NCBI RefSeq assembly: GCF_002786325.1
Contig: NZ_PGTB01000001.1
Span: forward strand, 62,001 to 126,000
Length of the DNA stretch: 64,000 bases
Reading direction: 5' to 3'
Source: Pseudooceanicola lipolyticus
GTDB lineage: Bacteria; Pseudomonadota; Alphaproteobacteria; Rhodobacterales; Rhodobacteraceae
Shown here: in pieces, positions 6,391-64,000 of the stretch
Numbering within the stretch: position 1 is the first letter of the stretch
Layout of the letters: every line of letters begins with the position of its first letter
The notes under the pieces: generated by a model
Told to the model about the DNA's origin: nothing
Seen by the model: the letters and a program-made list of their open reading frames with translations, nothing else
The model's database searches: none
Made by a program: the position numbers and the translations under genes

Positions 6391-6577
6391 TCCATACCAA
6401 TTTTGGGCCGGCCGCGAAGATGTCACATTCGCCAATATAGGCAACAAAACGATGGATTGCTTGGATGTGCGGCATCCCGGCGCGGCCGGAGTCACAGGAA
6501 AGGGCTGGACATCTTTTGGTGAGGGCGACATTGGGGTCACGTTTGTACTCTCAATCGCCAGAAGATCGGGGTGAGAC

Positions 6578-7357
6578 ATGGGCAAAGGCAGCAAGGCGCT
6601 GAGACGAAAATCCGATCTGCCGCGCTATGCTCGGATACAGAGCGAGTTGCAGTCGCGCATTTCCGGCGGAACCTACCCCGTGGGTGCGTTGATGCCGACG
6701 GAGTTGGAACTGGCGGAGGAGTTCGACACCTCGCGCTTCACGGTGAGGGCCGCGTTGCAGAACCTCACCCAGGAGGGTTTTGTCGAACGACGGCAGGGCA
6801 TGGGCACCCGCGTGGTTTCGGCCAATCCGCAGGTTGGTTATTCGCAAAGCTTCGACAGTCTTCAGGCGCTGTTCCAGATCGCGATTGACACCTACATGGT
6901 GATCCTCGCAGATGCGCCCGTGGTGCTCGATGAGGCGCTTGCTCGCGTCATCGGGGGCGATGCCGGCAAGGTAGAGGCCGGCGAGCGCTGGATCCGGGTT
7001 GACGGCGTGCGTTGGACGGCTCCGGGCGGCCGGCCGCTGTGCTATATCCAGTGCTACGTGCCGGAGCGGTTTGCCGAGTTGGTGCCCGAGTTTGCCGAGC
7101 AGAACGGCCCGTTTTTCGACCTTCTGGAGCGCAAGTCCGGCGAAACGATCATGGAGGCCCAGCAGGAGATCCGCGCGGTGCCCATGCCTGCCGAGATGGC
7201 GCGCGCGATCGGTCTCAAGCCGGGGGCGCAGGCGTTGCAGCTTTCGCGGCGCTACATCACCGCGCGCGGCATATTGATCGCCTCTCTCAACTGGCATCCG
7301 GCCGAGCAGATGGTCTATCGCACCCGCGTGCGCCGCCGCGCGACGAAAGACGACTGA
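6578..7357 (+). CDS. GntR-family transcriptional regulator with UTRA (HutC-type) effector domain
   Basis: This 259-residue protein has an N-terminal winged helix (residues 12-80): RYARIQSELQSRISGGTYP, then LMPTELELAEEFDTSRFTVRAAL as helix-turn-helix, ending with the wing around ERRQGMGTRVV. The C-terminal part, residues 95-250, matches the length and pattern of a UTRA ligand-binding domain. It is divergently placed from the isomerase-lyase-amidase-SDR operon and so probably controls it in response to a pathway metabolite. It ends 11 bases before the convergent metallo-hydrolase gene. HutC-type members usually act as repressors released by their ligand; whether this one does is not visible. 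Confidence 0.88.
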   Translation: MGKGSKALRRKSDLPRYARIQSELQSRISGGTYPVGALMPTELELAEEFDTSRFTVRAALQNLTQEGFVERRQGMGTRVVSANPQVGYSQSFDSLQALFQIAIDTYMVILADAPVVLDEALARVIGGDAGKVEAGERWIRVDGVRWTAPGGRPLCYIQCYVPERFAELVPEFAEQNGPFFDLLERKSGETIMEAQQEIRAVPMPAEMARAIGLKPGAQALQLSRRYITARGILIASLNWHPAEQMVYRTRVRRRATKDD

Positions 7358-7368
7358 GCGCCTGCGCA

Positions 7369-8253
7369 TCACAGGTACTCCGGCCTGTAGCCCGAGGGCG
7401 ATCTGCTATCCTGCGCAATCGTCATGGCCATGCTGCCGCGCAGATGTGCGGGCAGCAGCAGGGTGCCACTCTCGGCAGCCTCGGAAAGCAGGGCCCTGCG
7501 CGTCGCCGCCGCCTGTTCCGCGTCATGGCAGAATGCGGTTGACCATTCGGGGCGGAACACATGCACCGGACTGTGCAGCGCGTCGCCGCAAAACCGCGCG
7601 TGGCCGGCGCTGCCGCCGTCCAGATCGAGCCCGATCTGCCCCGGCGAATGCCCGGCACAGGCGATGATGTTCAGCCCTTTCCCCAGCGAAAATCCCTCCG
7701 ATACCCGCTCGACAAGCCCTGCCTCCAGCAGCGGCTCGACCGAGTCGGCAAAGGCCCCGTGGTTATGTGTACCGGGCTGCGCGGCCTCCTCGGCCAGCCA
7801 ATGCGCCAGTTCGGCCTCGCCCACGAGGTAGCGCGCCCGCGGAAAGGTGGGCACCCAGCGGCCGTTTTCCAGCCGGGTGTTCCAGCCCACGTGATCCGCG
7901 TGAAGGTGGGTGCACATCACCACGTCCACCTCCTCGGGGGAAACGCCGGCCTGGGCCAGGCGCTCGAGATAGCCGGTGTCGCGCCGGTCGTGCCAGTCTG
8001 CGCGGCGCGGCCGCGGCTTGTGCTCGCCCACGCAACTGTCGATCAAGATCGTAAGACCGCCCACCCGGAGCAGAAAGGAATGGAGGCCAAGCAGCAGCGT
8101 GTTGGCCTCTAGGTCCACATGCAGCGGACAAAGGCTCGCCGCCTCGCTTTTTAACTCCGAAAGGTCACGCCCGGGCAGCAGCAGGGACGCGGGCAGCACG
8201 AAGGGGTCGAAGTCGGTGACCTTTTCGATGGTGGCGCGCCCCAGACTCAGCAT
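7369..8253 (-). CDS. MBL-fold (metallo-beta-lactamase superfamily) hydrolase
   Basis: This 294-residue protein has the zinc-binding signature THLHADHVGW near residue 110, with the further His in CAGHSPGQIG and the Asp in FCGDALHSP at the expected spacing for a dinuclear MBL enzyme. Members include lactonases and thioester hydrolases. The start at 8253 lies one base after the stop of the upstream SDR gene, so translation is probably coupled; longer in-frame extensions have no homologous character. It is the last gene of the 14264-to-7369 operon. A lactonase or ester-opening step following the monooxygenase and dehydrogenases is plausible but not shown. Confidence 0.86.
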   Translation of the reverse strand: MLSLGRATIEKVTDFDPFVLPASLLLPGRDLSELKSEAASLCPLHVDLEANTLLLGLHSFLLRVGGLTILIDSCVGEHKPRPRRADWHDRRDTGYLERLAQAGVSPEEVDVVMCTHLHADHVGWNTRLENGRWVPTFPRARYLVGEAELAHWLAEEAAQPGTHNHGAFADSVEPLLEAGLVERVSEGFSLGKGLNIIACAGHSPGQIGLDLDGGSAGHARFCGDALHSPVHVFRPEWSTAFCHDAEQAAATRRALLSEAAESGTLLLPAHLRGSMAMTIAQDSRSPSGYRPEYL

Positions 8254-8254
8254 G

Positions 8255-9085
8255 TCAGAGTATCCTCGGCATGTCGCCGTGGTCATCACGGGCACCCCGC
8301 GCGGCCTCGTCGGGCGGCAGGCTCTCGTCCCACAAACGTGCGATGAACCGCGCCCCGGTGACCCCGTTCGAGGCATCGGAACACAGCCACCCGATCCCGC
8401 GGCGCATGATGTCTGCGGGCAGCAGGTTGCCGTCCGCCCCCTTCTTGTTGGCGCTTGGCGGCAGCAGGTCGGTGTCGGCCGCGCCGCCGGGGAGATAGAC
8501 GTTCACATCCACGCCGCTGCCCTCCAGATCTTGCGCCCAGACGCGGGAGTAGGCTTCGAGAGCGGCCTTGGAAGGACCATATGGGGCATAGCCGCGGCGG
8601 ATCATCGTCTGTGCCGAGGTCGACACGTTGATGACCTTGCCAAAGCCACGTTCCACCATGCCCGGCACCGCCGCGCGGGCCATGAAGAAGGGGCCATTCA
8701 CATTGGCGCCGATGATGTCAGACCACGCAGCCGGCGAGGTCTCCCAGAACTTTGTCGGAGTGGTGTTGAAGTTCTCGGCCACCCGGCGCATGCCCAGGCC
8801 CGCGTTATTCACCAACACGTCGATCCGCCCGAAATGGGCTTCCGCCTCTGCCACAACTGCGGCGGCCTGACCCGCGCGGGCCACATCGGCGGTGAGGATC
8901 ATCGTGTCGGAGATCTCCTCGGCCAGGCTGTCGAGCGCTTCGGAGGGCTGCGAGCCTAGCAGCGCCAGCCTTGCGCCCGACCCCGCGAGCGCAAGCGCCA
9001 TCTCGCGGCCCAGACCGCGAGATGCGCCGGTGATCAGGATGACCCTGCCATTCAGAGAAGGGTGATGGCTCATGATGCTCTGCAT
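8255..9085 (-). CDS. Short-chain dehydrogenase/reductase (SDR)
   Basis: A 276-residue classical SDR with TGASRGLG near residue 19, VLVNNAGLGM near residue 90 and the catalytic Ser with YGPSK near residue 175. It ends with a PG-rich tail typical of the family. The start is either ATG 9085 (GGAA just upstream) or ATG 9073 four codons in; both give an intact fold. It lies 11 bases downstream of the aldehyde dehydrogenase and 1 base before the MBL hydrolase. Together these suggest oxidation of an alcohol to an aldehyde to an acid, or an equivalent step on a ring-cleavage product. Confidence 0.88.
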   Translation of the reverse strand: MQSIMSHHPSLNGRVILITGASRGLGREMALALAGSGARLALLGSQPSEALDSLAEEISDTMILTADVARAGQAAAVVAEAEAHFGRIDVLVNNAGLGMRRVAENFNTTPTKFWETSPAAWSDIIGANVNGPFFMARAAVPGMVERGFGKVINVSTSAQTMIRRGYAPYGPSKAALEAYSRVWAQDLEGSGVDVNVYLPGGAADTDLLPPSANKKGADGNLLPADIMRRGIGWLCSDASNGVTGARFIARLWDESLPPDEAARGARDDHGDMPRIL

Positions 9086-9096
9086 TTCCGCGCGGT

Positions 9097-10599
9097 TCAG
9101 TTGCCGGTACCCATGCGGGGCAGGGCAGGGCGTTCCAGCGCAATGATGGTGGATTTCATTTCGGTGAACATGGCCCGCGAGCCCTTGGCGCCCTCGCGAC
9201 CCAGGCCCGACTGACGGACGCCGCCGAACCCGGTGCGCAGGTCGCGCATGATCGGAGTGTTGACCAGCACGGTGCCGGTTGCCAACCGCCGCGACAGCCG
9301 CAGCGCGCGTTCCAGATCGGCAGTCCAGACATAGCCGACGAGCCCGAAGGCGCTGTCATTGGCGCGGGCAATTACCTCGTCTTCGTCGCTGAACGTCTGG
9401 ATCGTGGCGAAGGGGGCAAAGATCTCTTCCTGACAGATGGCCAGCGCGTTGCTGTTCGATTGCATCACGGTTGGCTCGATAAAGAAGCCGTCGCCCTCGA
9501 TCTGGCCGCCCCCCGCCAGCAGCGTTGCGCCCTGACCAAGGCCGCTTTCGACGTAGGAGGCCACGCGCGCCATCTGTGCGGCGTTGATCATCGGGCCGAT
9601 TTCCGTCGCCGGATCAAAGGGATCGCCGACGCGCAGCGCCTTTGTGCGGGTAGTGAATGCGGCGATGAACTCATCCGCGACCTGCTCATGGACAAACAGG
9701 CGCGAGCCCGCGAGGCACATTTGACCGTTATTCATGAACGAGCCCAGCATCGCGCCGTCCAGCGCCCGTTCGATATCCGCATCGGCAAAAACGATGGAGG
9801 GGGACTTGCCGCCCAGTTCCATGGCGCCGCCCTTGATCCCCTTGGCCAGCGCGCCAAGGATACGGGCGCCGGTTTCGGTGCCGCCGGTGAAAGAGACCAT
9901 GTCGATATCTGGATGCGCCGACAGCGCCTCGCCGGTCACATGTCCGCGCCCATTGACCAGGTTGATCACCCCGGGCGGCAGGATGCCCTTGGCGTCCATG
10001 ATCTCGAACAGCCGGGCGAGCGTCAGCGGCGTGATTTCCGAGGGTTTCACGACACAGGTGTTGCCGAAGGCCAGCGCCCCCGCCATTTTCATCGCGGTCA
10101 GCCCCAGCGGCATGTTCCATGGGCCGATGAGGGCGCAGACGCCAATCGGCTCATACGTAACCAGCGACATGTAGCCGGGTTCTTGCGTGAATACCTCGCC
10201 GCCGTCCTGATTGATGAATTCCGCAAAAAAGCGAAAGTTTTGCGCGGCGCGGGGAAGGTGGATGTTTTTGGTCTGGATGAAAGGGATGCCGGTGTTCAGC
10301 GTTTCCAGCGCGGCCAGTTCTTCGGCATGTTCCAGGATGGCGTCATGGATCGCGTGCAGCGCGCGCTGGCGGTCTGCGACGCTGGCCCCGGCCCAAGGAC
10401 CAGCCCGGAACGCGTCGCGGGCGGCGGCAACGGCGGCCCCAACCTCTGCGCCGTCGCTTTCGTGCAGCACCGCGACAGTGGTTCCGGTGGCCGGGTCGAT
10501 GACCGGAATCGCCTCGCCGGTCGGAGCGGCGAAAGCGCCGGCGGCATAGCCCGTGATCGTCTTGGGGTTCGACATAAGTTCGGAGCGAACGTTTTTCAT
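9097..10599 (-). CDS. NAD(P)-dependent aldehyde dehydrogenase
   Basis: This 500-residue protein is a full-length aldehyde dehydrogenase. GPWNMPLGLTAMKMAGALAFG near residue 145 is the cofactor-binding approach, FTGGTETG near residue 240 the nucleotide loop, MELGGKSPSIVF near residue 263 holds the catalytic Glu, and NNGQMCLAGSR near residue 297 the catalytic Cys. The ATG at 10599 overlaps the stop of the GntR gene by four bases; MSNPK eight codons later is an alternative. It oxidises an aldehyde or semialdehyde to the acid. The presence of a dedicated regulator directly upstream in the same operon fits a catabolic rather than housekeeping role. Confidence 0.92.
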   Translation of the reverse strand: MKNVRSELMSNPKTITGYAAGAFAAPTGEAIPVIDPATGTTVAVLHESDGAEVGAAVAAARDAFRAGPWAGASVADRQRALHAIHDAILEHAEELAALETLNTGIPFIQTKNIHLPRAAQNFRFFAEFINQDGGEVFTQEPGYMSLVTYEPIGVCALIGPWNMPLGLTAMKMAGALAFGNTCVVKPSEITPLTLARLFEIMDAKGILPPGVINLVNGRGHVTGEALSAHPDIDMVSFTGGTETGARILGALAKGIKGGAMELGGKSPSIVFADADIERALDGAMLGSFMNNGQMCLAGSRLFVHEQVADEFIAAFTTRTKALRVGDPFDPATEIGPMINAAQMARVASYVESGLGQGATLLAGGGQIEGDGFFIEPTVMQSNSNALAICQEEIFAPFATIQTFSDEDEVIARANDSAFGLVGYVWTADLERALRLSRRLATGTVLVNTPIMRDLRTGFGGVRQSGLGREGAKGSRAMFTEMKSTIIALERPALPRMGTGN

Positions 10600-56757: not shown

Positions 56758-58143
56758 TCAGGGCAGGGCATGGACCCGGGCCTTTACGGTCGCGATATCG
56801 TTGGCGATCACGTCGGGCACGCTGCGGACCGGGCGGGGGCTAAAGGGAGCCTGTCCCGGACCGGGGCAGAAGCCCAGGACCTCGGTGACGGTCTCGTTGA
56901 ATTTCACCGGATGCGCGGTCGAGAGCACCACTTGCGGTGCGCGCTCCGGCGATAGCCGTGCGGCGGCCTCCAGCGCGACGGCGGTGTGCGGATCGGCGAC
57001 ATATTGCGTCGCCGCATGGCTGCGGGCGATCCTGTCTCGGCAGGCGGGCTGGCTGACTGCGGAAGCCCGAAACGCGCGCTGGAACCGGCTGAGTGCCGGC
57101 GCGGGAAGGGCAAACCCACCGTGCTGCTCCAAATCCGCCATCAGCCGGCGCAGCGCTGCCGCGTCATGGTCCAGAAGCTCGAACAAGAGCCGCTCGAAAT
57201 TCGACGCGACCTGGATGTCCATGGCCGGTGTGATCGTCGGTTTCAACGCCTTCGGCACATAGGAGCCGGTGGTATGGGCGCGGGCGAGAATATCATTTTC
57301 ATTTGTGGCAATCGTCAACCCGGCGATCGGGGCGCCCATCTGCCGCGCCACGTGGCCGGCATAGATGTCGCCGAAATTGCCGCTGGGGATCACGAAATTG
57401 ACGCCACTGTCAGGAAGGCCCAGCGCCAGGCAGGTGGTGAAATAGTAAACTGCCTGGGCCACGATCCGCCCCCAGTTGATTGAGTTCACCGCAGAGAGCG
57501 ACACCGCATCGCGAAAAGTGTCGTCCGCGAACAGCCCTTTGACGATCCGCTGACAGTCGTCAAAACTACCGCTCACCGCCGCCACATGGGTGTTGTCGCC
57601 GCACAGCCCCAGCATCTGATCTTGCTGAAACGGTGAAACGCCACCCTCGGGAAACAGGAACAGCACCTTGATACCGGCACGCCCGGCAAAGGCTTTGAGC
57701 GCGGCGCCGCCGGTATCGCCGGATGTGGCGCCGACGATGGTCATCTGTCGCCCCTCCTCGGCCAGAAAATGCGCCATCAGAGGCGCAATCGCCTGCATGG
57801 CGAAATCCTTGAATGCCAGGGTGGGGCCGTGGAACAGTTCAAGAACCCACTGCTTCGGACCGGTCTGGACCAGCGGCGCCACGGCGGGGTGCCCGAAATC
57901 GTCATAAGCCCGCCCCAAAAGCGCGCGCAGCCGCTCGGGTGAGATGCAGTCGCCGGCAAAGCGGCGGAAGACCTCGAAGGCCACATCCGGATATGCGGCC
58001 CCACGCAGCGCGGAGAGTTCGGCGGCAGAGAATTGCGGCCACTCGGTGGGAAGGTAAAGTCCGCCATCGGGCGCCAGTCCCGTCAGGATCGCGGATTTGA
58101 AATCGACGGCGGGCGCCTGCCCACGGGTAGAGATATACTGCAT
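56758..58143 (-). CDS. thrC: Threonine synthase
   Basis: A 461-residue PLP enzyme converting O-phospho-L-homoserine to L-threonine. The start MQYISTRGQAPAVDFKSAIL, the TGLAPDGGLYLPTEWP segment, the PLP lysine at residue 112 in GPTLAFKDFAMQ, the phosphate loop GATSGDTGGAALKAFAG near residue 138 and INWGRIVAQAVYYF near residue 230 are all canonical, and length is normal. It sits alone, antiparallel to the SDR and behind the second Liv-type operon's end (127-base gap), away from other threonine genes. It may be the cell's only copy or a second one. Confidence 0.95.
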   Translation of the reverse strand: MQYISTRGQAPAVDFKSAILTGLAPDGGLYLPTEWPQFSAAELSALRGAAYPDVAFEVFRRFAGDCISPERLRALLGRAYDDFGHPAVAPLVQTGPKQWVLELFHGPTLAFKDFAMQAIAPLMAHFLAEEGRQMTIVGATSGDTGGAALKAFAGRAGIKVLFLFPEGGVSPFQQDQMLGLCGDNTHVAAVSGSFDDCQRIVKGLFADDTFRDAVSLSAVNSINWGRIVAQAVYYFTTCLALGLPDSGVNFVIPSGNFGDIYAGHVARQMGAPIAGLTIATNENDILARAHTTGSYVPKALKPTITPAMDIQVASNFERLLFELLDHDAAALRRLMADLEQHGGFALPAPALSRFQRAFRASAVSQPACRDRIARSHAATQYVADPHTAVALEAAARLSPERAPQVVLSTAHPVKFNETVTEVLGFCPGPGQAPFSPRPVRSVPDVIANDIATVKARVHALP

Positions 58144-58269: not shown

Positions 58270-60180
58270 TCAGGCTCGGGCGGTCCCGACGGCGGCGGGC
58301 GTGGTCGAGGCGCTGTGCCAGCCCTCGGTATGGCGCAGGAAGGAGAAATAGCTCAGGTCGAAGGCATCCGTCCGGTTGAAGAAGGGCGCATGCTTGCCGT
58401 CCTGGATATCCTGCGGCGCCCCCTTCCAGAGGTTGCCGTAATTCAGTCCCGCAACATAGGCGTGGTTCAGGAAGGGATCATCGTTGCCGTTGAGAATGGC
58501 GGTGGGAATCCGGCCTTCGGCGAGCACCCGCATCTGCCGCGGCCAGTCGACGATGGCCAGCTTGGTCATCATGTAGGCGCGTGCCCGCCCATCAGTACGA
58601 CGTACCGCGCGATGCAGGAAGGCGCTTGCCTCGGAGAGCGGCGCCGTGGCGTGCTGTCCGTAGGACCGGGCCTCCTGACGCGAGAAGTACTGCTTGGCGG
58701 TCAGCACCATATGCGCGGTGGGCACATAGGCGCGGCCCATGTCATCGGGTACCACGGTGAGTGGCGGCGTGCCGCAGATCGCCAGCGAGGTCACCTCGAC
58801 ACGGTCCCGCGCCGCCAGTTCCAGAGCCACATAGCCCCCCAGCGACCAACCAAAGACATGCACCTGCCGGACACCGCAGTCTGACAGGACCTGTTCCGCG
58901 ATCTCGGCATAGGCATTGACGTTATAGGCGGCCTCGGGATCGGCATTATCCGACACCCCGTGCCCCGGCAGATCAAAGGCGATCACCCGGTAGCGGTCGG
59001 CAAAGCTGCGGAACTGCTTGTGAAAGGCCTCCTTGCAGGCAGAGTTGCCGTGCAGCATCAGCAGCGCAGGTTTGTCGGTGCCGCCGGCAGGGGCGGTGTC
59101 GGCCACCGCGATTTTGCCGAAGCGGGTCTGCAGCATTCGCTCCTGCGCGCCGGTCATCGCCTCGCGGGTGGCCTTGCCGCGGTGGCGCTGCAGCCGTGCC
59201 AGGGACTGGCTGCGCAGCCCGTCAGCGAGTTCGCGCAGCTGTTGCAGCGCCGCCCAGAGCCCGCCGGGATAGAAGACCACGACCAGAATGATGGCCAGCG
59301 CGACGATGATGTTCTGCCATGGTCCGAATCCGGCCAGCCATTCCGACAGGAAAGCGATGGCGAACGCGCCGATCAACGGCCCCCAGATGGTGCCGGTCCC
59401 CCCCACCAACAGCATCGACAGCACCAGGGTCAGGAAACCTATGCCGAAGGCGTCGGGCGATGCGACGCGCAGATAGGCGCCGTAGAAGGCTCCGGCAATG
59501 CCGGTGAACAGGGCACTGGCAGCCAGCGTCAGGGCGCGGGTCCTTGCCTCGGACACGCCGCGGGCGATGGCGTAATACTTGTTGTCCCGTAACGCCATGA
59601 TCGCCCGGCCCAGTCGTGATCGGGTCAACAGGTAGAGAAAGGCGATGTTGAGGAACAAAAGCCCCAGCCCGACATAGTAGTAGCCGATGCGCCCGTCATT
59701 GGAGAGCCGGTAGTCGCCGATTTTAAGCGTCGGCAGGGTGACCATGCCCGAGGTGCCGCCTGTGACATCCGACCAGGAGATCACGACCAGATAGATCAAC
59801 TGGCTGAGCGCGATGGTCACCAGGATCACGTATATCCCATCGAGCCTGAGCACCGGTAGCGCGATCAACAGTGCCACGATGGTCGCCGTCCCGCCGCCCG
59901 CCAGAATGGCAAGCCAGGGCGAAACGCCCAACGTCTTGGCAAGGATCGCATAGGTGTAAATGCCCACCGCGAACAGGGCGACATGGCCGAAATTGAACAG
60001 CCCGGCATAGCCCAGCGACAGATCCCAGTTCGTCGCCACGATGGCGAAGACGAAGGCCAGGATCATCAGGTGGCGAAAATAGGTTGCCTCGAAGATCAGC
60101 GGATAGACCAGCAGCGCGCCTGCCGCGAGGATCAGCGGGAACAGCCCCTGGGTCTTGTGAAGGGGAGGGTCGTAGCGCAT
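58270..60180 (-). CDS. Liv-type ABC permease (LivM-like) fused to an alpha/beta hydrolase
   Basis: A 636-residue two-domain protein. Residues 1 to about 310 are a complete LivM permease: GYAGLFNFGHVALFAVGIYTY near residue 58, LPVLRLDGIYVILVTIALSQ near residue 109, the ALRDNKYYAIARGVSEARTR coupling loop near residue 196 and GGTGTIWGPLIGAF near residue 260. A basic linker (about 311-350) leads to an alpha/beta hydrolase with oxyanion region LLMLHGNSACKE (375), nucleophile elbow GWSLGG (Ser 446), Asp in LNGNDDPF (567) and His in DGKHAPFF (597). No stop or frameshift separates the parts. ATG 60180 overlaps the LivH stop (TGATG). The Arg/Lys-rich linker suggests the hydrolase is cytoplasmic, ready to act on the incoming solute. 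Confidence 0.93.
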   Translation of the reverse strand: MRYDPPLHKTQGLFPLILAAGALLVYPLIFEATYFRHLMILAFVFAIVATNWDLSLGYAGLFNFGHVALFAVGIYTYAILAKTLGVSPWLAILAGGGTATIVALLIALPVLRLDGIYVILVTIALSQLIYLVVISWSDVTGGTSGMVTLPTLKIGDYRLSNDGRIGYYYVGLGLLFLNIAFLYLLTRSRLGRAIMALRDNKYYAIARGVSEARTRALTLAASALFTGIAGAFYGAYLRVASPDAFGIGFLTLVLSMLLVGGTGTIWGPLIGAFAIAFLSEWLAGFGPWQNIIVALAIILVVVFYPGGLWAALQQLRELADGLRSQSLARLQRHRGKATREAMTGAQERMLQTRFGKIAVADTAPAGGTDKPALLMLHGNSACKEAFHKQFRSFADRYRVIAFDLPGHGVSDNADPEAAYNVNAYAEIAEQVLSDCGVRQVHVFGWSLGGYVALELAARDRVEVTSLAICGTPPLTVVPDDMGRAYVPTAHMVLTAKQYFSRQEARSYGQHATAPLSEASAFLHRAVRRTDGRARAYMMTKLAIVDWPRQMRVLAEGRIPTAILNGNDDPFLNHAYVAGLNYGNLWKGAPQDIQDGKHAPFFNRTDAFDLSYFSFLRHTEGWHSASTTPAAVGTARA

Positions 60181-61067
60181 CACAGGGTCCTCTGATATTT
60201 GCCGAATAGACCCTCGGGCTTGAACAGAAGCACGACGATCATGGTGAAGAACAGTACCGCCGGCGCCCAGTAGAGGCCGACGAAATAGACCGAGAAGGCC
60301 TCGATCTGGCCGATTATCAATGCCGCGTAGATCGGCGAGGAAAAGCGCGCTACGCCACCGAAGATCACCACGATCAACGCTTTCATCAGCGGTTCGGATC
60401 CCATCGAGGGGCTCATGAAGCGGAGGGTCCCGACAAAGACTCCGGCCAGCCCGGCGGTCAGCGCGGCGATACCGAAGACAATCGAGAAATAGAGCGGCAC
60501 GTTCAGCCCCAGAAGCGCGGCGGCATCCTGGTTCTGGGCTACAGCGCGCATCGATCGGCCGGGCCTGGAATAGCGCAGGAACATTCCCACACAGAGCAGG
60601 ATCGCCAGTACCAGAGCCATTAACAACAGTTCGGAATTCCTCAACGACAGGGCGCCGAACTCGACTGCGCCATCGGCGAGGGAGGGGATCTGCTTGGACC
60701 GTGCCCCCCAGATCAGCTGCAGACCGTTTTCCAGGATCACCGCCCCGGCCAGCGTGCTGATGACCGAGATCAGGACAATGTCCTGGCGCCGTTCAAAGGG
60801 TTTGACCAGCAGGAAATGCAGCAGCGCGCCGATGGCGAACATCACCACGGAGCTGAGCAGAATGGCGGGGACCATCGGCAGTCCCCAGGCATCGGTGGAA
60901 GAGAACTGCCAGGCCAGATAGGCGCCGAGCGCGATGAAGGCCCCGTGGGCAAAGTTGAAGATGCCAAGCGTGGTCCAGACCAGAGACAGGCCGGTTGCCA
61001 TCAGCGCATAGAGCGCGCCCAGAACCAGGCCGGACTTGACGATATCAATCAGAATGGCCGTATCCAT
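60180..61067 (-). CDS. Liv-type ABC transporter permease, LivH-like
   Basis: A 295-residue permease with the LivH marks TGLSLVWTTLGIFNFAHGAFIALG near residue 29 (core GIFNFAHGAFIALG), the MRAVAQNQDAAALLGLN coupling loop near residue 180, and VIFGGVARFSSPIYAALIIG near residue 240. ATG 61067 overlaps the stop of the upstream ATPase (TGATG); a longer frame upstream overprints that gene. It forms the transport channel with the LivM-hydrolase fusion. Confidence 0.9.
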   Translation of the reverse strand: MDTAILIDIVKSGLVLGALYALMATGLSLVWTTLGIFNFAHGAFIALGAYLAWQFSSTDAWGLPMVPAILLSSVVMFAIGALLHFLLVKPFERRQDIVLISVISTLAGAVILENGLQLIWGARSKQIPSLADGAVEFGALSLRNSELLLMALVLAILLCVGMFLRYSRPGRSMRAVAQNQDAAALLGLNVPLYFSIVFGIAALTAGLAGVFVGTLRFMSPSMGSEPLMKALIVVIFGGVARFSSPIYAALIIGQIEAFSVYFVGLYWAPAVLFFTMIVVLLFKPEGLFGKYQRTL

Positions 61068-61846
61068 CAGTGTGCCTCTCCAAAAAGCATCTCCATCAGG
61101 GTTTGATGGTCGGGCATCTCCTCTTTCTCCATCCGGCCCGAGAAACGTCCGTGGTCGAAGAGGTAGAGGGTGTCGATGATCTGTTCGAGAAAGGCGACAT
61201 CCTGGTCGATCAGCACGATCGGAAGTCCCAGTTTGCGGACGCTGAGGATCGCGTCGCACAGCTCTTGCCGGACTTTCGGAGACAAACCCAGCGTCGGTTC
61301 GTCAAGGATCAGGAGTTTCGGTGCGGCCATCAAGCCCGCCGCCATCGAGACCATCTGTCGTTCGCCCCCCGACAGAAAGCGGATCTTGTGGCTGCCACGC
61401 TCGTGCAACCGGGGGAACAACGCGTGGACCTCCGGCAGCGACCAGCCCTTGCGGCCGTGCGCGGCGGTGGTGGCGATTGACAGGGTCTCGTCCACCGTCA
61501 ATTCTGGAAACAGCAGGTTGCCCTGCTGCACATGGATCAGACCGGCGCGGGCAACGGCCTTGGGATCGATCCGGCGCCGGGTCACGGCGTCGTAGTTGAA
61601 ATTACGCCAGCGGCGGCTGCCCCGTTCGCCTTCGCGGTTCATGCGTTGTCCCGAAAAGAAGATATCCCCGGCCCAGGGGTCGATCAGCCCGGACAGTGTT
61701 TTCAGGAATGTTGTCTTGCCATGGCCGTTGGGGCCGAAGATGCCGATGCTTTCGCCCTCGGCGATCTGCAGGCTGATGTCCGAGAAGATCTGTGTGGTGT
61801 CATAGCCACCCGACAGCCCGCGCACATCAAGAATATAGTCACTCAT
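61067..61846 (-). CDS. Liv-type ABC transporter ATP-binding protein, LivF-like
   Basis: A 259-residue ATPase with Walker A FGPNGHGKTTFLK near residue 37, LIHVQQGNLLFPELTVDETL near residue 103 at the Q-loop, signature FLSGGERQMVSMAAGLM near residue 158 and Walker B LLILDEPTLGLSP near residue 178. It is about 20 residues longer than the 17157-17876 counterpart because of an Arg-rich insert (NREGERGSRRWRNFNYD) after Walker A. Its start overlaps the LivG-like gene by eight bases. Confidence 0.9.
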   Translation of the reverse strand: MSDYILDVRGLSGGYDTTQIFSDISLQIAEGESIGIFGPNGHGKTTFLKTLSGLIDPWAGDIFFSGQRMNREGERGSRRWRNFNYDAVTRRRIDPKAVARAGLIHVQQGNLLFPELTVDETLSIATTAAHGRKGWSLPEVHALFPRLHERGSHKIRFLSGGERQMVSMAAGLMAAPKLLILDEPTLGLSPKVRQELCDAILSVRKLGLPIVLIDQDVAFLEQIIDTLYLFDHGRFSGRMEKEEMPDHQTLMEMLFGEAH

Positions 61847-62576
61847 GGGCCACCCCCAGATAGGCTTCGATCACGATGGGGTCGCGGGTCACCGTGATCG
61901 GGTCGCCCTTGCCGATCATCACGCCCTGGTCTAGCACCAGCAATTGATCCGAAACCTCCATCAGCAAGCCCAGAACATGCTCGATCAGGACCACGGTCAT
62001 GCCGTTGTCGCGCACTCTAAGGATAATCTGCTTCATCCGCTCGATCTCCGGCCCGGTGAGCGAGGAGGCGGGTTCGTCTAGCAGCAGCACCTTGGGCTGA
62101 AGCGCCAGCGCCGAGGCGATCATCAACTGCTTGCGGTAGAAGATCGGCAGGCTGCCGGCAGGCGAATTGTGCATGTTGGCGGGAAATCCGACCAGGTTCA
62201 GCGCCTCTTCCGCGCGTTCGATCTGTTCGGCGAAAGGGGCGTTGGGCAGGTGGCTTTCCACCGCGACCACAACGTTGTCGATCGCCGACAGCGAGGCGAA
62301 GACGTTTTCACGCTGAAAGGTGCGAGCGATGCCGGCAAGGGCGATCCGATGGGCGGAAAGCCCCATGATCGACTTGCCGTTAAGCCGCACCTCGCCTTTG
62401 GTCGGGCCGAAGGGCACCTTGGTCATGACGTTGAACAAGGTGGATTTGCCGCTGCCGTTGGGTCCGGCAATGCCGAATATTTGCTGTGGCAGGACGTCGA
62501 AGCTCACATCGTTGACGGCTTTGAGCCCGCCGAAATGTTTCGCCACGCCGCGGACGGACAAGATGGGGTCAACCAT
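61839..62576 (-). CDS. Liv-type ABC transporter ATP-binding protein, LivG-like
   Basis: A 245-residue ATPase with GGLKAVNDVSF near residue 16, Walker A AGPNGSGKSTLFN near residue 38, Q-loop IARTFQRENVFASLSAIDN near residue 83, a degenerate signature around LPIFYRKQLMIASALAL near residue 147 and Walker B VLLLDEPASSLTGPE near residue 163. The switch His is in VLIEHVLGLLME. It is the first enzyme-type gene after the binding protein, from which it is separated by 99 bases holding a weak CCGCCGC/GCGGCGG stem (62604-62634). Confidence 0.9.
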   Translation of the reverse strand: MVDPILSVRGVAKHFGGLKAVNDVSFDVLPQQIFGIAGPNGSGKSTLFNVMTKVPFGPTKGEVRLNGKSIMGLSAHRIALAGIARTFQRENVFASLSAIDNVVVAVESHLPNAPFAEQIERAEEALNLVGFPANMHNSPAGSLPIFYRKQLMIASALALQPKVLLLDEPASSLTGPEIERMKQIILRVRDNGMTVVLIEHVLGLLMEVSDQLLVLDQGVMIGKGDPITVTRDPIVIEAYLGVAHE

Positions 62577-62675: not shown

Positions 62676-63908
62676 TTATTTCTTCAGCCAGGGCGGCGTC
62701 CGGAAATCCGCGTCCGCATAGTCATTCGGAGCGATCATGTTACGTTTGCCGTCCCAGATCTGCCAAAAGGTGGTGGGCGATCGGTCATCGCCCTGGGTGG
62801 CGACATGGGTGGCCTGGTCGAATTCCAGGATGCCGGATGCAACCTCTTTCCTGGTCTGGCCGATGGCCGTGCCGATGGCATCGTGATCGGTGGGATCTCC
62901 AACCGCGCGCAGGGCGTCGAAATAGATATTTGCCTCTTCGTACAACCCGACGCCATAGGCGCCAGATTCGATGCCGTAGCGTTCCTTGTATTCGGCCATG
63001 AGCCTCTGACCACGCGGCCATTTCGAGGTGTTGAGCGGGGCGGAGATCAGGTTGTAGAGCACGCCGGTCGAGGCTTCGCCAGTCAACGTCAGGAATTCGG
63101 GGACCGAGGGGGCGTATTGCAGAAACACCAGGCTGTCGGTCGGCTGTTCAAGGAACTGTTTCATGAACAGAGCCGAGTTGCCGGGGATATAATCCGTGTT
63201 GACGACCAGATCAGGGTTGGTTTCCTTCACCTTGGTGAGAATCACGGTCCAGTCGCTGACCGCGCCAAACGGGACGAGTTCGTCGACAACCACGTTCCAG
63301 CCACCTTCCGCAAAGCTTTTCTTCATGCCTTCGGAGATGGTCTTGGAGTAGGGGTTGTCGGAAGAGATGATCGCGACGGTCTTGTCATCGACGGTGATCT
63401 TGCCGCCGGCGGCCAGTCCGTCGACCATCGGCAGCAGATCGGTTTCATAGCCTTCGAAGCTGGCGGTATAGGACCAGCAGCAATTGTAGTATTCCGGGTC
63501 TTGCGACACGATCCCGGCGAACGCGGGCGAGGGACCTGCCGCGATATAGGGCATGTTCTCCTCGGCCATCAGGTCGACCTCGAACATCGACAAGCTGGCG
63601 TAGCCGGTCAGGATGACCTCGACCCCGTCGGTGCCCAGAAGACGTTCCACCGCGCTCGACACGTTGGCGGCGGAGTGGTCCTTAACATCGGCCACTTCCA
63701 GTTCAAAGGTGTACCCGGCGACGCCGCCGTTGGCGTTGGCTTCCTCGATCGCCCATTTGGCGCCGCGCACATATTCCTCGCCGTCCGAGGCGGTGGCCCC
63801 GGTCAGGGGGGCGAGGACCCCGATCTTGACCACATCGGCCAGGGCCGTGCTGCCCATCAGGGCAGCGGCAAGGCTGAGCGCCAGCGCTGTTTTATTGTGC
63901 TTTGTCAT
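62676..63908 (-). CDS. Periplasmic binding protein of the second Liv-type ABC transporter
   Basis: A 410-residue type I binding protein with a Sec signal peptide (MTKHNK start, hydrophobic residues 7-20, cleavage near ALADVV). Mature VVKIGVLAPLTGATASDGEE and AIEEANANGGVAGYTFELEV are typical of LivJ/amide-binding receptors. ATG 63908 follows GGAGG at ideal spacing. It opens the operon whose last gene carries a fused hydrolase, so its ligand is probably an ester or amide that the hydrolase cleaves. A Cys-Cys pair in YNCCWSY near residue 150 is unusual for the family. Confidence 0.9.
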   Translation of the reverse strand: MTKHNKTALALSLAAALMGSTALADVVKIGVLAPLTGATASDGEEYVRGAKWAIEEANANGGVAGYTFELEVADVKDHSAANVSSAVERLLGTDGVEVILTGYASLSMFEVDLMAEENMPYIAAGPSPAFAGIVSQDPEYYNCCWSYTASFEGYETDLLPMVDGLAAGGKITVDDKTVAIISSDNPYSKTISEGMKKSFAEGGWNVVVDELVPFGAVSDWTVILTKVKETNPDLVVNTDYIPGNSALFMKQFLEQPTDSLVFLQYAPSVPEFLTLTGEASTGVLYNLISAPLNTSKWPRGQRLMAEYKERYGIESGAYGVGLYEEANIYFDALRAVGDPTDHDAIGTAIGQTRKEVASGILEFDQATHVATQGDDRSPTTFWQIWDGKRNMIAPNDYADADFRTPPWLKK

Positions 63909-64000
63909 GATGACCTCCTGTTGTTCAGGCCAGACTGACAGAGCAAGAGGTGGGCTGTGTACTGGCAAATCTTGCAAAAAGAGCACCGTTTCGGCAGGAT

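Follow-up and report, generated by a model that had tools for sequence, protein, structure and literature searches.

What would a bacterium gain by joining a hydrolase to the channel of an ATP-binding cassette (ABC) importer? The question is raised by a gene in a 64,000-nucleotide stretch of Pseudooceanicola lipolyticus DNA (the window hereafter; C111:62001-126000 of a 5.2-Mb draft genome in 439 contigs), in which a LivM-type permease and an alpha/beta hydrolase are encoded as one protein. In this study, we confirmed that the fusion is genuine, found it to be conserved, and observed a genomic context that favours quorum signals over general nutrients. We consider it probable that the gene belongs to a LuxR-controlled system for the uptake and destruction of quorum signals, which would import N-acyl-homoserine lactones (AHLs) or close analogues and open the lactone. 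The features on which this reading is built are as follows.

58270..60180, minus strand: fused LivM-hydrolase gene; permease at residues ~1-304, basic linker at 305-348, AidH-like alpha/beta hydrolase at ~345-636
60180..61067, minus strand: LivH permease; BPD_transp_2, E 3.8e-33; its ATG at 61067 overlaps the LivF stop
61067..61846, minus strand: LivF ATPase; ABC_tran; nearest NCBIfam models UrtE/LivF
61839..62576, minus strand: LivG ATPase; ABC_tran; nearest NCBIfam model LivG
62676..63908, minus strand: periplasmic binding protein of 410 aa; Peripla_BP_6, E 3.4e-43; nearest solved chain 3h5l
63961..63978, minus strand: operator-like box TTTGCAAGATTTGCCAGT, 52 bp ahead of the binding-protein start
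~64007 onward (L042:7-768), beyond the window, divergent from the binding-protein gene: LuxR-type receptor gene; Autoind_bind and GerE
56758..58143, minus strand: threonine synthase (ThrC), the second of the genome; TIGR00260, E 6.5e-77; 126 bp past the fused gene

The fused gene and its distribution

The frame of the fused gene (58270-60183, minus strand) is open throughout, and translation probably begins at the ATG at 60180, whose overlap with the LivH stop reads GTGATG; this start gives a protein of 636 aa. Numbered from the GTG, this protein matched BPD_transp_2 at residues 39-301 (E 7.9e-40) and Abhydrolase_1 at 372-603 (E 1.5e-23). The original prediction, made from the sequence alone, had described a single intact frame with a LivM permease, a basic linker and a complete hydrolase with its catalytic triad, and all of these were recovered: residues 305-348 hold 8 K/R against 4 D/E, and, with the ATG as residue 1, Ser446, Asp568 (the second Asp in GNDDPF) and His597 align to Ser102, Glu219 and His248 of the lactonase AidH. 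The gene was also correctly placed at the end of a complete importer operon. The order is binding protein, LivG, LivF, LivH and fused LivM, which provides a full LIV-type set (a binding protein, two PF02653 permeases and two ATPases) in a single operon. None of the NCBIfam LivM, LivH, LivF and LivG models attained its cut-off on the operon proteins. The solute could not be read from the kinship of the binding protein, whose nearest solved chain, 3h5l, is named merely putative.

In the predicted structure of the fused protein, a coupling-type helix at residues 189-206 (loop net charge +4) and four long helices precede the basic linker (net +4), and this helix order and these charges weakly suggest that the hydrolase would lie on the cytoplasmic side. 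The cytoplasmic C-terminus that had been proposed for checking is therefore predicted, although only weakly given the low model confidence: the mean predicted local distance difference test score (pLDDT) was 64 for the fused model, with parts of the last membrane helices below 50, and 69 for a hydrolase-only model, with the cap region below 50. The matches in a fold search with the fused model were filled by hydrolases, and the absence of permease matches there is uninformative.

Eighteen distinct fused loci were identified (the window, L029-L041, L045, L071, L072 and L098), 13 of them by a pattern scan of genome contigs, which gave relatives 52-90% identical over almost the whole length. Seventeen loci are complete, and L033 leaves its contig after residue ~606. 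No stop was present between the domains in any of the 18, which rules out a sequencing or assembly artefact or a missed stop; the fusion and its operon are thus conserved across genera, a point on which the original prediction had called for a search. Some loci were near-identical (L030/L031 and L037/L038/L039), and therefore the 18 loci do not represent 18 independent events. We also considered a triple LivH-LivM-hydrolase fusion in the long frame of L045 and rejected it, as the extra upstream residues are not LivH-like and the frame crosses the LivH region.

The distribution of the fusion is rare and patchy. Among 198 genomes of the same family, the full fusion occurred in four (the own genome, G138, G092 and G147), where the G138 and G092 copies were taken as repeats of loci already counted. 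With the hydrolase domain as query (E <= 1e-40), matches were found in 14 and 11 genomes in samples of the class (385 genomes) and the phylum (398 genomes), respectively (own genome included in both); besides the own genome, fused copies were present in G231 (L071), G198 (L072) and G635 (L098). Environmental hosts of the fusion that can be cultured include Pseudodonghicola flavimaris, Albibacillus kandeliae and Flavimaribacter sediminis, the first of which has an extra thrC. The hydrolase matches L094, L095 and L096 were left out of the locus analysis. Only four of 72,556 plasmid records matched at E 1e-40, none of them covering more than 80% of the query. In the hydrolase tree all 18 fused domains formed one clade (support 100/100), and therefore one fusion event is the simplest explanation; the permease tree left the placement of L098 unresolved. 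The fused operon of L071 stood near the Ruegeria copies, yet its host, G231, belongs to another family and has a 2.8-Mb genome with no LuxR or LuxI match. This operon was possibly transferred and stripped of its receptor.

Enzyme, receptor and neighbouring genes

The nearest solved relative of the fused hydrolase, by both sequence and fold, was AidH (PDB 4g5x, 4g8b and 4g9e), whose source strain we take to be Ochrobactrum sp. T63. The cited passages describe AidH as a proven AHL lactonase (PMC3532132). The two enzymes have in common the alpha/beta-hydrolase fold with its Ser-His-acid triad, Asn33, Trp101, Leu103 and Phe221 (AidH numbering), and the acid is Asp rather than Glu in all 18 fused copies. 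AidH Tyr160 is kept in the window protein and in 14 of the 18 fused domains, with Phe in L033, L041, L071 and L098. A further difference concerns His106 and Phe138, which are retained in all 19 non-fused relatives and replaced by Tyr in all 18 fused hydrolases. This Tyr/Tyr pair (window:58273-59148 and the other 17 domains) marks the fused clade and is a lead on its substrate. In view of the two altered tunnel residues in every fused copy, the enzyme is called here AidH-like, on sequence grounds, rather than an AHL lactonase.

The second line of evidence comes from the LuxR-type gene, which begins ~7 bases past the window edge. Its product matched Autoind_bind (E 8.5e-22) and GerE, its nearest solved chains were QscR and LasR, and Rhizobium-type LuxR proteins were 30-32% identical to it. 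By tblastn, a divergent LuxR gene was found beside 16 of the 18 fused operons; both domains were present in all six of these that were scanned (L029, L036, L037, L042, L045 and L072), and the other ten were assigned by similarity. No LuxR gene was found in the examined flanks of five related importers that lack the fusion (L046, L047, L100, L101 and L110). Nine positions (Trp75, Tyr79, Asp88, Pro89, Trp103, Gly131, Glu197, Leu201 and Gly207) were invariant in all 16 aligned receptors, and these are, we assume, the ones conserved in AHL-responsive LuxR proteins for ligand pocket and DNA binding. The own genome had three Autoind_bind and 59 BPD_transp_2 matches, and on the contigs of its other two LuxR genes the closest permease matches lay ~5 and 11 kb away. 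Since neither the LuxR gene nor the AidH kinship had been seen, the original prediction left the substrate as 'ester, amide or lactone'; its interpretation was supported in part, for the conserved importer-hydrolase fusion.

An imperfect inverted repeat was detected between the LuxR and binding-protein genes, as TTTGCAAGATYTGCCAGT in eight loci and AGCAAACCTTTGCAATT in seven (0-2 mismatches each), that is, in 15 of the 16 LuxR-bearing fused loci. It resembles lux boxes. No box within 3 mismatches was found in L045, L071 and L098. When the own genome was searched with the 18 bases at up to 3 mismatches, six sites were obtained versus four for the reversed control, and only the window site was exact. 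A genome-wide regulon of the box was not upheld, with five looser sites against four in the reversed control and a 2-mismatch site inside coding-type frames. One 3-mismatch copy of the second box pattern occurred in the control locus L047, and another in L035.

The related importers without the fusion were also informative. L100 and L101 each carry a related importer (60-62% identity to the window's binding protein and 50-54% to its LivM), divergent from a separate hydrolase gene whose product is 70% and 67% identical to AidH, respectively. By sequence, orthologues of a proven AHL lactonase adjoin this importer lineage, and the two divergent pairs indicate a functional link between importer and hydrolase that does not depend on the fusion alone. 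On the other hand, 16 stand-alone AidH-like loci showed no related LIV operon in the flanks examined, some on contigs of just 3-6 kb; at L102, two remote matches to the binding protein (25% identity) lay several kilobases from the stand-alone hydrolase. At L104:8739-10226, a stand-alone AidH-like gene lies directly beside a LuxR gene (Autoind_bind and GerE), with no related importer within the 17 kb examined. Separate LivM and AidH-like genes with a 4-base overlap were observed at L046:8380-10549 (G018). This locus was counted as a remnant rather than as a split operon because LivH is only partial and no binding-protein or ATPase genes were found.

Several M20-type genes were observed around these loci. 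An ArgE/DapE-type M20 deacylase lies near four non-fused LIV operons (L047:12647-13966, L100:14644-15960, L101:2229-3545 and L110:3944-5248), and those compared were 55-77% identical to one another; our guess is that such an enzyme could take off the acyl chain. At L080:5522-7533, a stand-alone AidH-like gene stands beside an M20 amidohydrolase gene, 42% identical to one near L030. Genes of the M20, Amidohydro_2, Aminotran_4 and AstE/AspA types were present at L107:1226-5722 (G635), upstream of the LuxR-less fused operon L098.

In five of the 18 loci (the window, L029, L030, L031 and L045), the fused gene is followed by a threonine synthase gene of the same orientation; a scan of the interval between the two gave a single terminator-like site, on the plus strand, and no site on the minus strand. 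Four genomes (the own genome and the L029, L030 and L031 hosts) had two ThrC above the TIGR00260 cut-off, one of them local, whereas the host of L045 (73% complete) had only the local one; among 12 other hosts, 11 had one ThrC and one had none (hosts of all fused loci except L035 were counted). The L030 and L031 enzymes are about equally near to the canonical and the window copies, and were called extra copies because of these per-genome counts. An extra local ThrC fits the use of AHL-derived homoserine, and ThrC is possibly part of the pathway.

LuxI was found above the cut-off in the own genome, G138, G092, G147 and the hosts of L030, L031, L033, L034 and L041, and marginally in the L040 host. 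It was not detected in the hosts of L035-L039 (5/11), G198, G231 and G635, several of which are draft or metagenome assemblies. In a host without LuxI, the receptor could hear only the signals of others. In the own genome, a LuxI-family gene (L084:6004-6507 in G000:C422; Autoind_synth, E 5e-17) lies in convergent orientation at the end of a different LIV-type operon (~6573-9824). In G092 (C30:184236-193630), a LuxR-LuxI pair was also observed at ~8 kb from the LuxR gene that adjoins the fused operon.

The proposed pathway and its rivals

Gene content, conservation, enzyme and receptor family, active-site and pocket residues and the box were established by computation, and they suggest the following sequence of events. 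The divergent receptor, of the LuxR type by its sequence, would sense an AHL, whether own or foreign, and would turn on the importer operon through the lux-box-like site. The binding protein would capture the AHL or a close analogue, LivHM and LivFG would pump it inward, and the AidH-type lactonase, assigned by family and triad and predicted on the cytoplasmic end of LivM, would open the emerging lactone. The product, N-acyl-homoserine, is charged and should not signal any more. We infer that AHL is the common ligand of receptor, binding protein and enzyme, and that uptake would be coupled to cleavage, with transfer from pore to enzyme and trapping of the solute. In some hosts, the homoserine may be salvaged through deacylation and the extra threonine synthase. 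This is the weakest step, because ThrC acts on phosphohomoserine, the operon yielded neither a kinase nor a deacylase, and ThrC was not seen at 13 of the 18 loci, in two of which the contig stops close to the gene. In its full form, the proposal is a dedicated LuxR-controlled AHL importer with its lactonase on the channel, which would sense the signal, import it, destroy it at the pore exit and pass homoserine to threonine via the extra ThrC, and which LuxI-less hosts would use to eavesdrop on their neighbours and silence them. We put this full version forward tentatively, at slightly under an even chance.

Several observations weigh against a role in AHL uptake and destruction. LIV-type binding proteins usually bind amino acids, and identity of the fused hydrolase to AidH is just 34-40%. 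The Tyr/Tyr pair in every fused copy and the Phe at the Tyr160 position in four of 18 also count here; AidH Y160G retains 0-10% activity, F138G keeps 97-100%, and the cited passages contain no His106 mutant (PMC3532132). L071 and L098 are fused and have no adjacent LuxR gene, the L071 genome has no Autoind_bind match at all, and L098 lies among other amino-acid-type genes and may carry a different solute. In addition, AHLs can enter cells without a transporter, and some LuxR proteins with all pocket residues (CarR and MalR) work without AHL, according to passages of one report (PMC4981722).

These points bear on three other explanations. The receptor could be a LuxR solo that senses a non-AHL lactone, ester or amide from a host organism or the environment, with the importer and hydrolase closing a feedback loop, as is described in part of one report for PipR of Pseudomonas sp. 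GM79 with its ABC peptide importer and the peptidases AapA and PipA (PMC4981722). The pocket signature of the fused clade, unlike that of AidH, would suit such a loop, as would the LuxR-less L098 beside its M20, Amidohydro_2, Aminotran_4 and AstE/AspA-type genes. However, the PipR receptor carries Trp in place of the conserved Tyr at the ligand site and does not respond to AHLs (PMC4981722), whereas this mark of the plant-responsive PipR/OryR group is absent here (Tyr79 in all 16 receptors), and the operon hydrolase matched proline iminopeptidase models weakly and AidH best. We regard this explanation as unlikely.

It is rather improbable that the operon simply takes up a lactone or an N-acyl amino acid as an ordinary nutrient, with the hydrolase as the first catabolic step and LuxR as a general regulator. 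Membership in the LIV family, the two fused loci without LuxR and the M20 deacylase near four related importers agree with it, but the AidH orthologues beside L100 and L101 do not, nor does the presence, at 16 of the 18 loci, of an adjacent LuxR gene whose product belongs to the AHL-receptor family and keeps its pocket intact. Finally, the permease might merely anchor the enzyme at the membrane while AHLs diffuse in and the importer moves another solute. Unaided AHL entry (PMC4981722) and the stand-alone AidH-like loci with no related importer in the flanks examined, some on short contigs, would allow this, but it is very improbable, given that the enzyme accompanies this same importer lineage in 18 fused loci and in two divergent pairs.

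Comparison with known systems

AHLs are usually regarded as freely diffusing, with uncontrolled entry. If LuxR-controlled AHL import is true, uptake would be one of the regulated steps in quorum sensing and quenching; the system would also account for the clearance of dilute signals by an intracellular enzyme, and would suggest that AidH-type lactonases natively partner a transporter. Bacteria would then take up, destroy and perhaps eat the quorum signals of their neighbours, and these loci would offer a gene set for testing eavesdropping, signal recycling and AHL feeding in Alphaproteobacteria. Among the open-access papers listed in the literature searches, we found no AHL ABC importer or other inner-membrane AHL importer and no LivM-hydrolase fusion, in agreement with the statement of the original prediction that no system of this build was described.

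The Lsr system combines ABC uptake with chemical inactivation of the quorum signal autoinducer-2 by a kinase, under the regulator LsrR. The proposed system would be its AHL counterpart, with another signal, a hydrolase in place of the kinase and LuxR in place of LsrR; no kinase was present among the Pfam-scanned operon proteins, and no search aimed at LsrK or LsrR was made. AidH itself is described as a separate protein with His106, Phe138 and Glu219 (PMC3532132), in contrast with Tyr, Tyr and Asp in the fused clade. QsdH of Pseudoalteromonas byunsanensis also carries an AHL lactonase and a membrane transporter in one polypeptide, but it is a GDSL enzyme in a predicted periplasmic loop of an RND efflux pump, with no importer and no LuxR reported in the cited passages (PMC3466314); the BPD_transp_2 and Abhydrolase_1 domains found here do not match that build. 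The qsd operon of Rhodococcus erythropolis resembles ours in its AHL-induced AHL catabolism and in a regulator divergent from the lactonase gene, whereas QsdR is a TetR-type repressor, the enzymes are the lactonase QsdA and the acyl-CoA ligase QsdC, and no importer is described in the part cited (PMC6262395). Protein-mediated uptake of long-chain AHLs is described for FadL of Sinorhizobium fredii, an outer-membrane channel with no ATPase and no lactonase in that account (PMC9938287). The nearest working parallel is the PipR system, in which the genes for an ABC importer and for hydrolases of the imported signal likewise adjoin that of a LuxR-family regulator; according to the cited passages, it differs in its separate genes, peptide-type importer, peptidases and an OryR-type receptor that does not respond to AHLs (PMC4981722).
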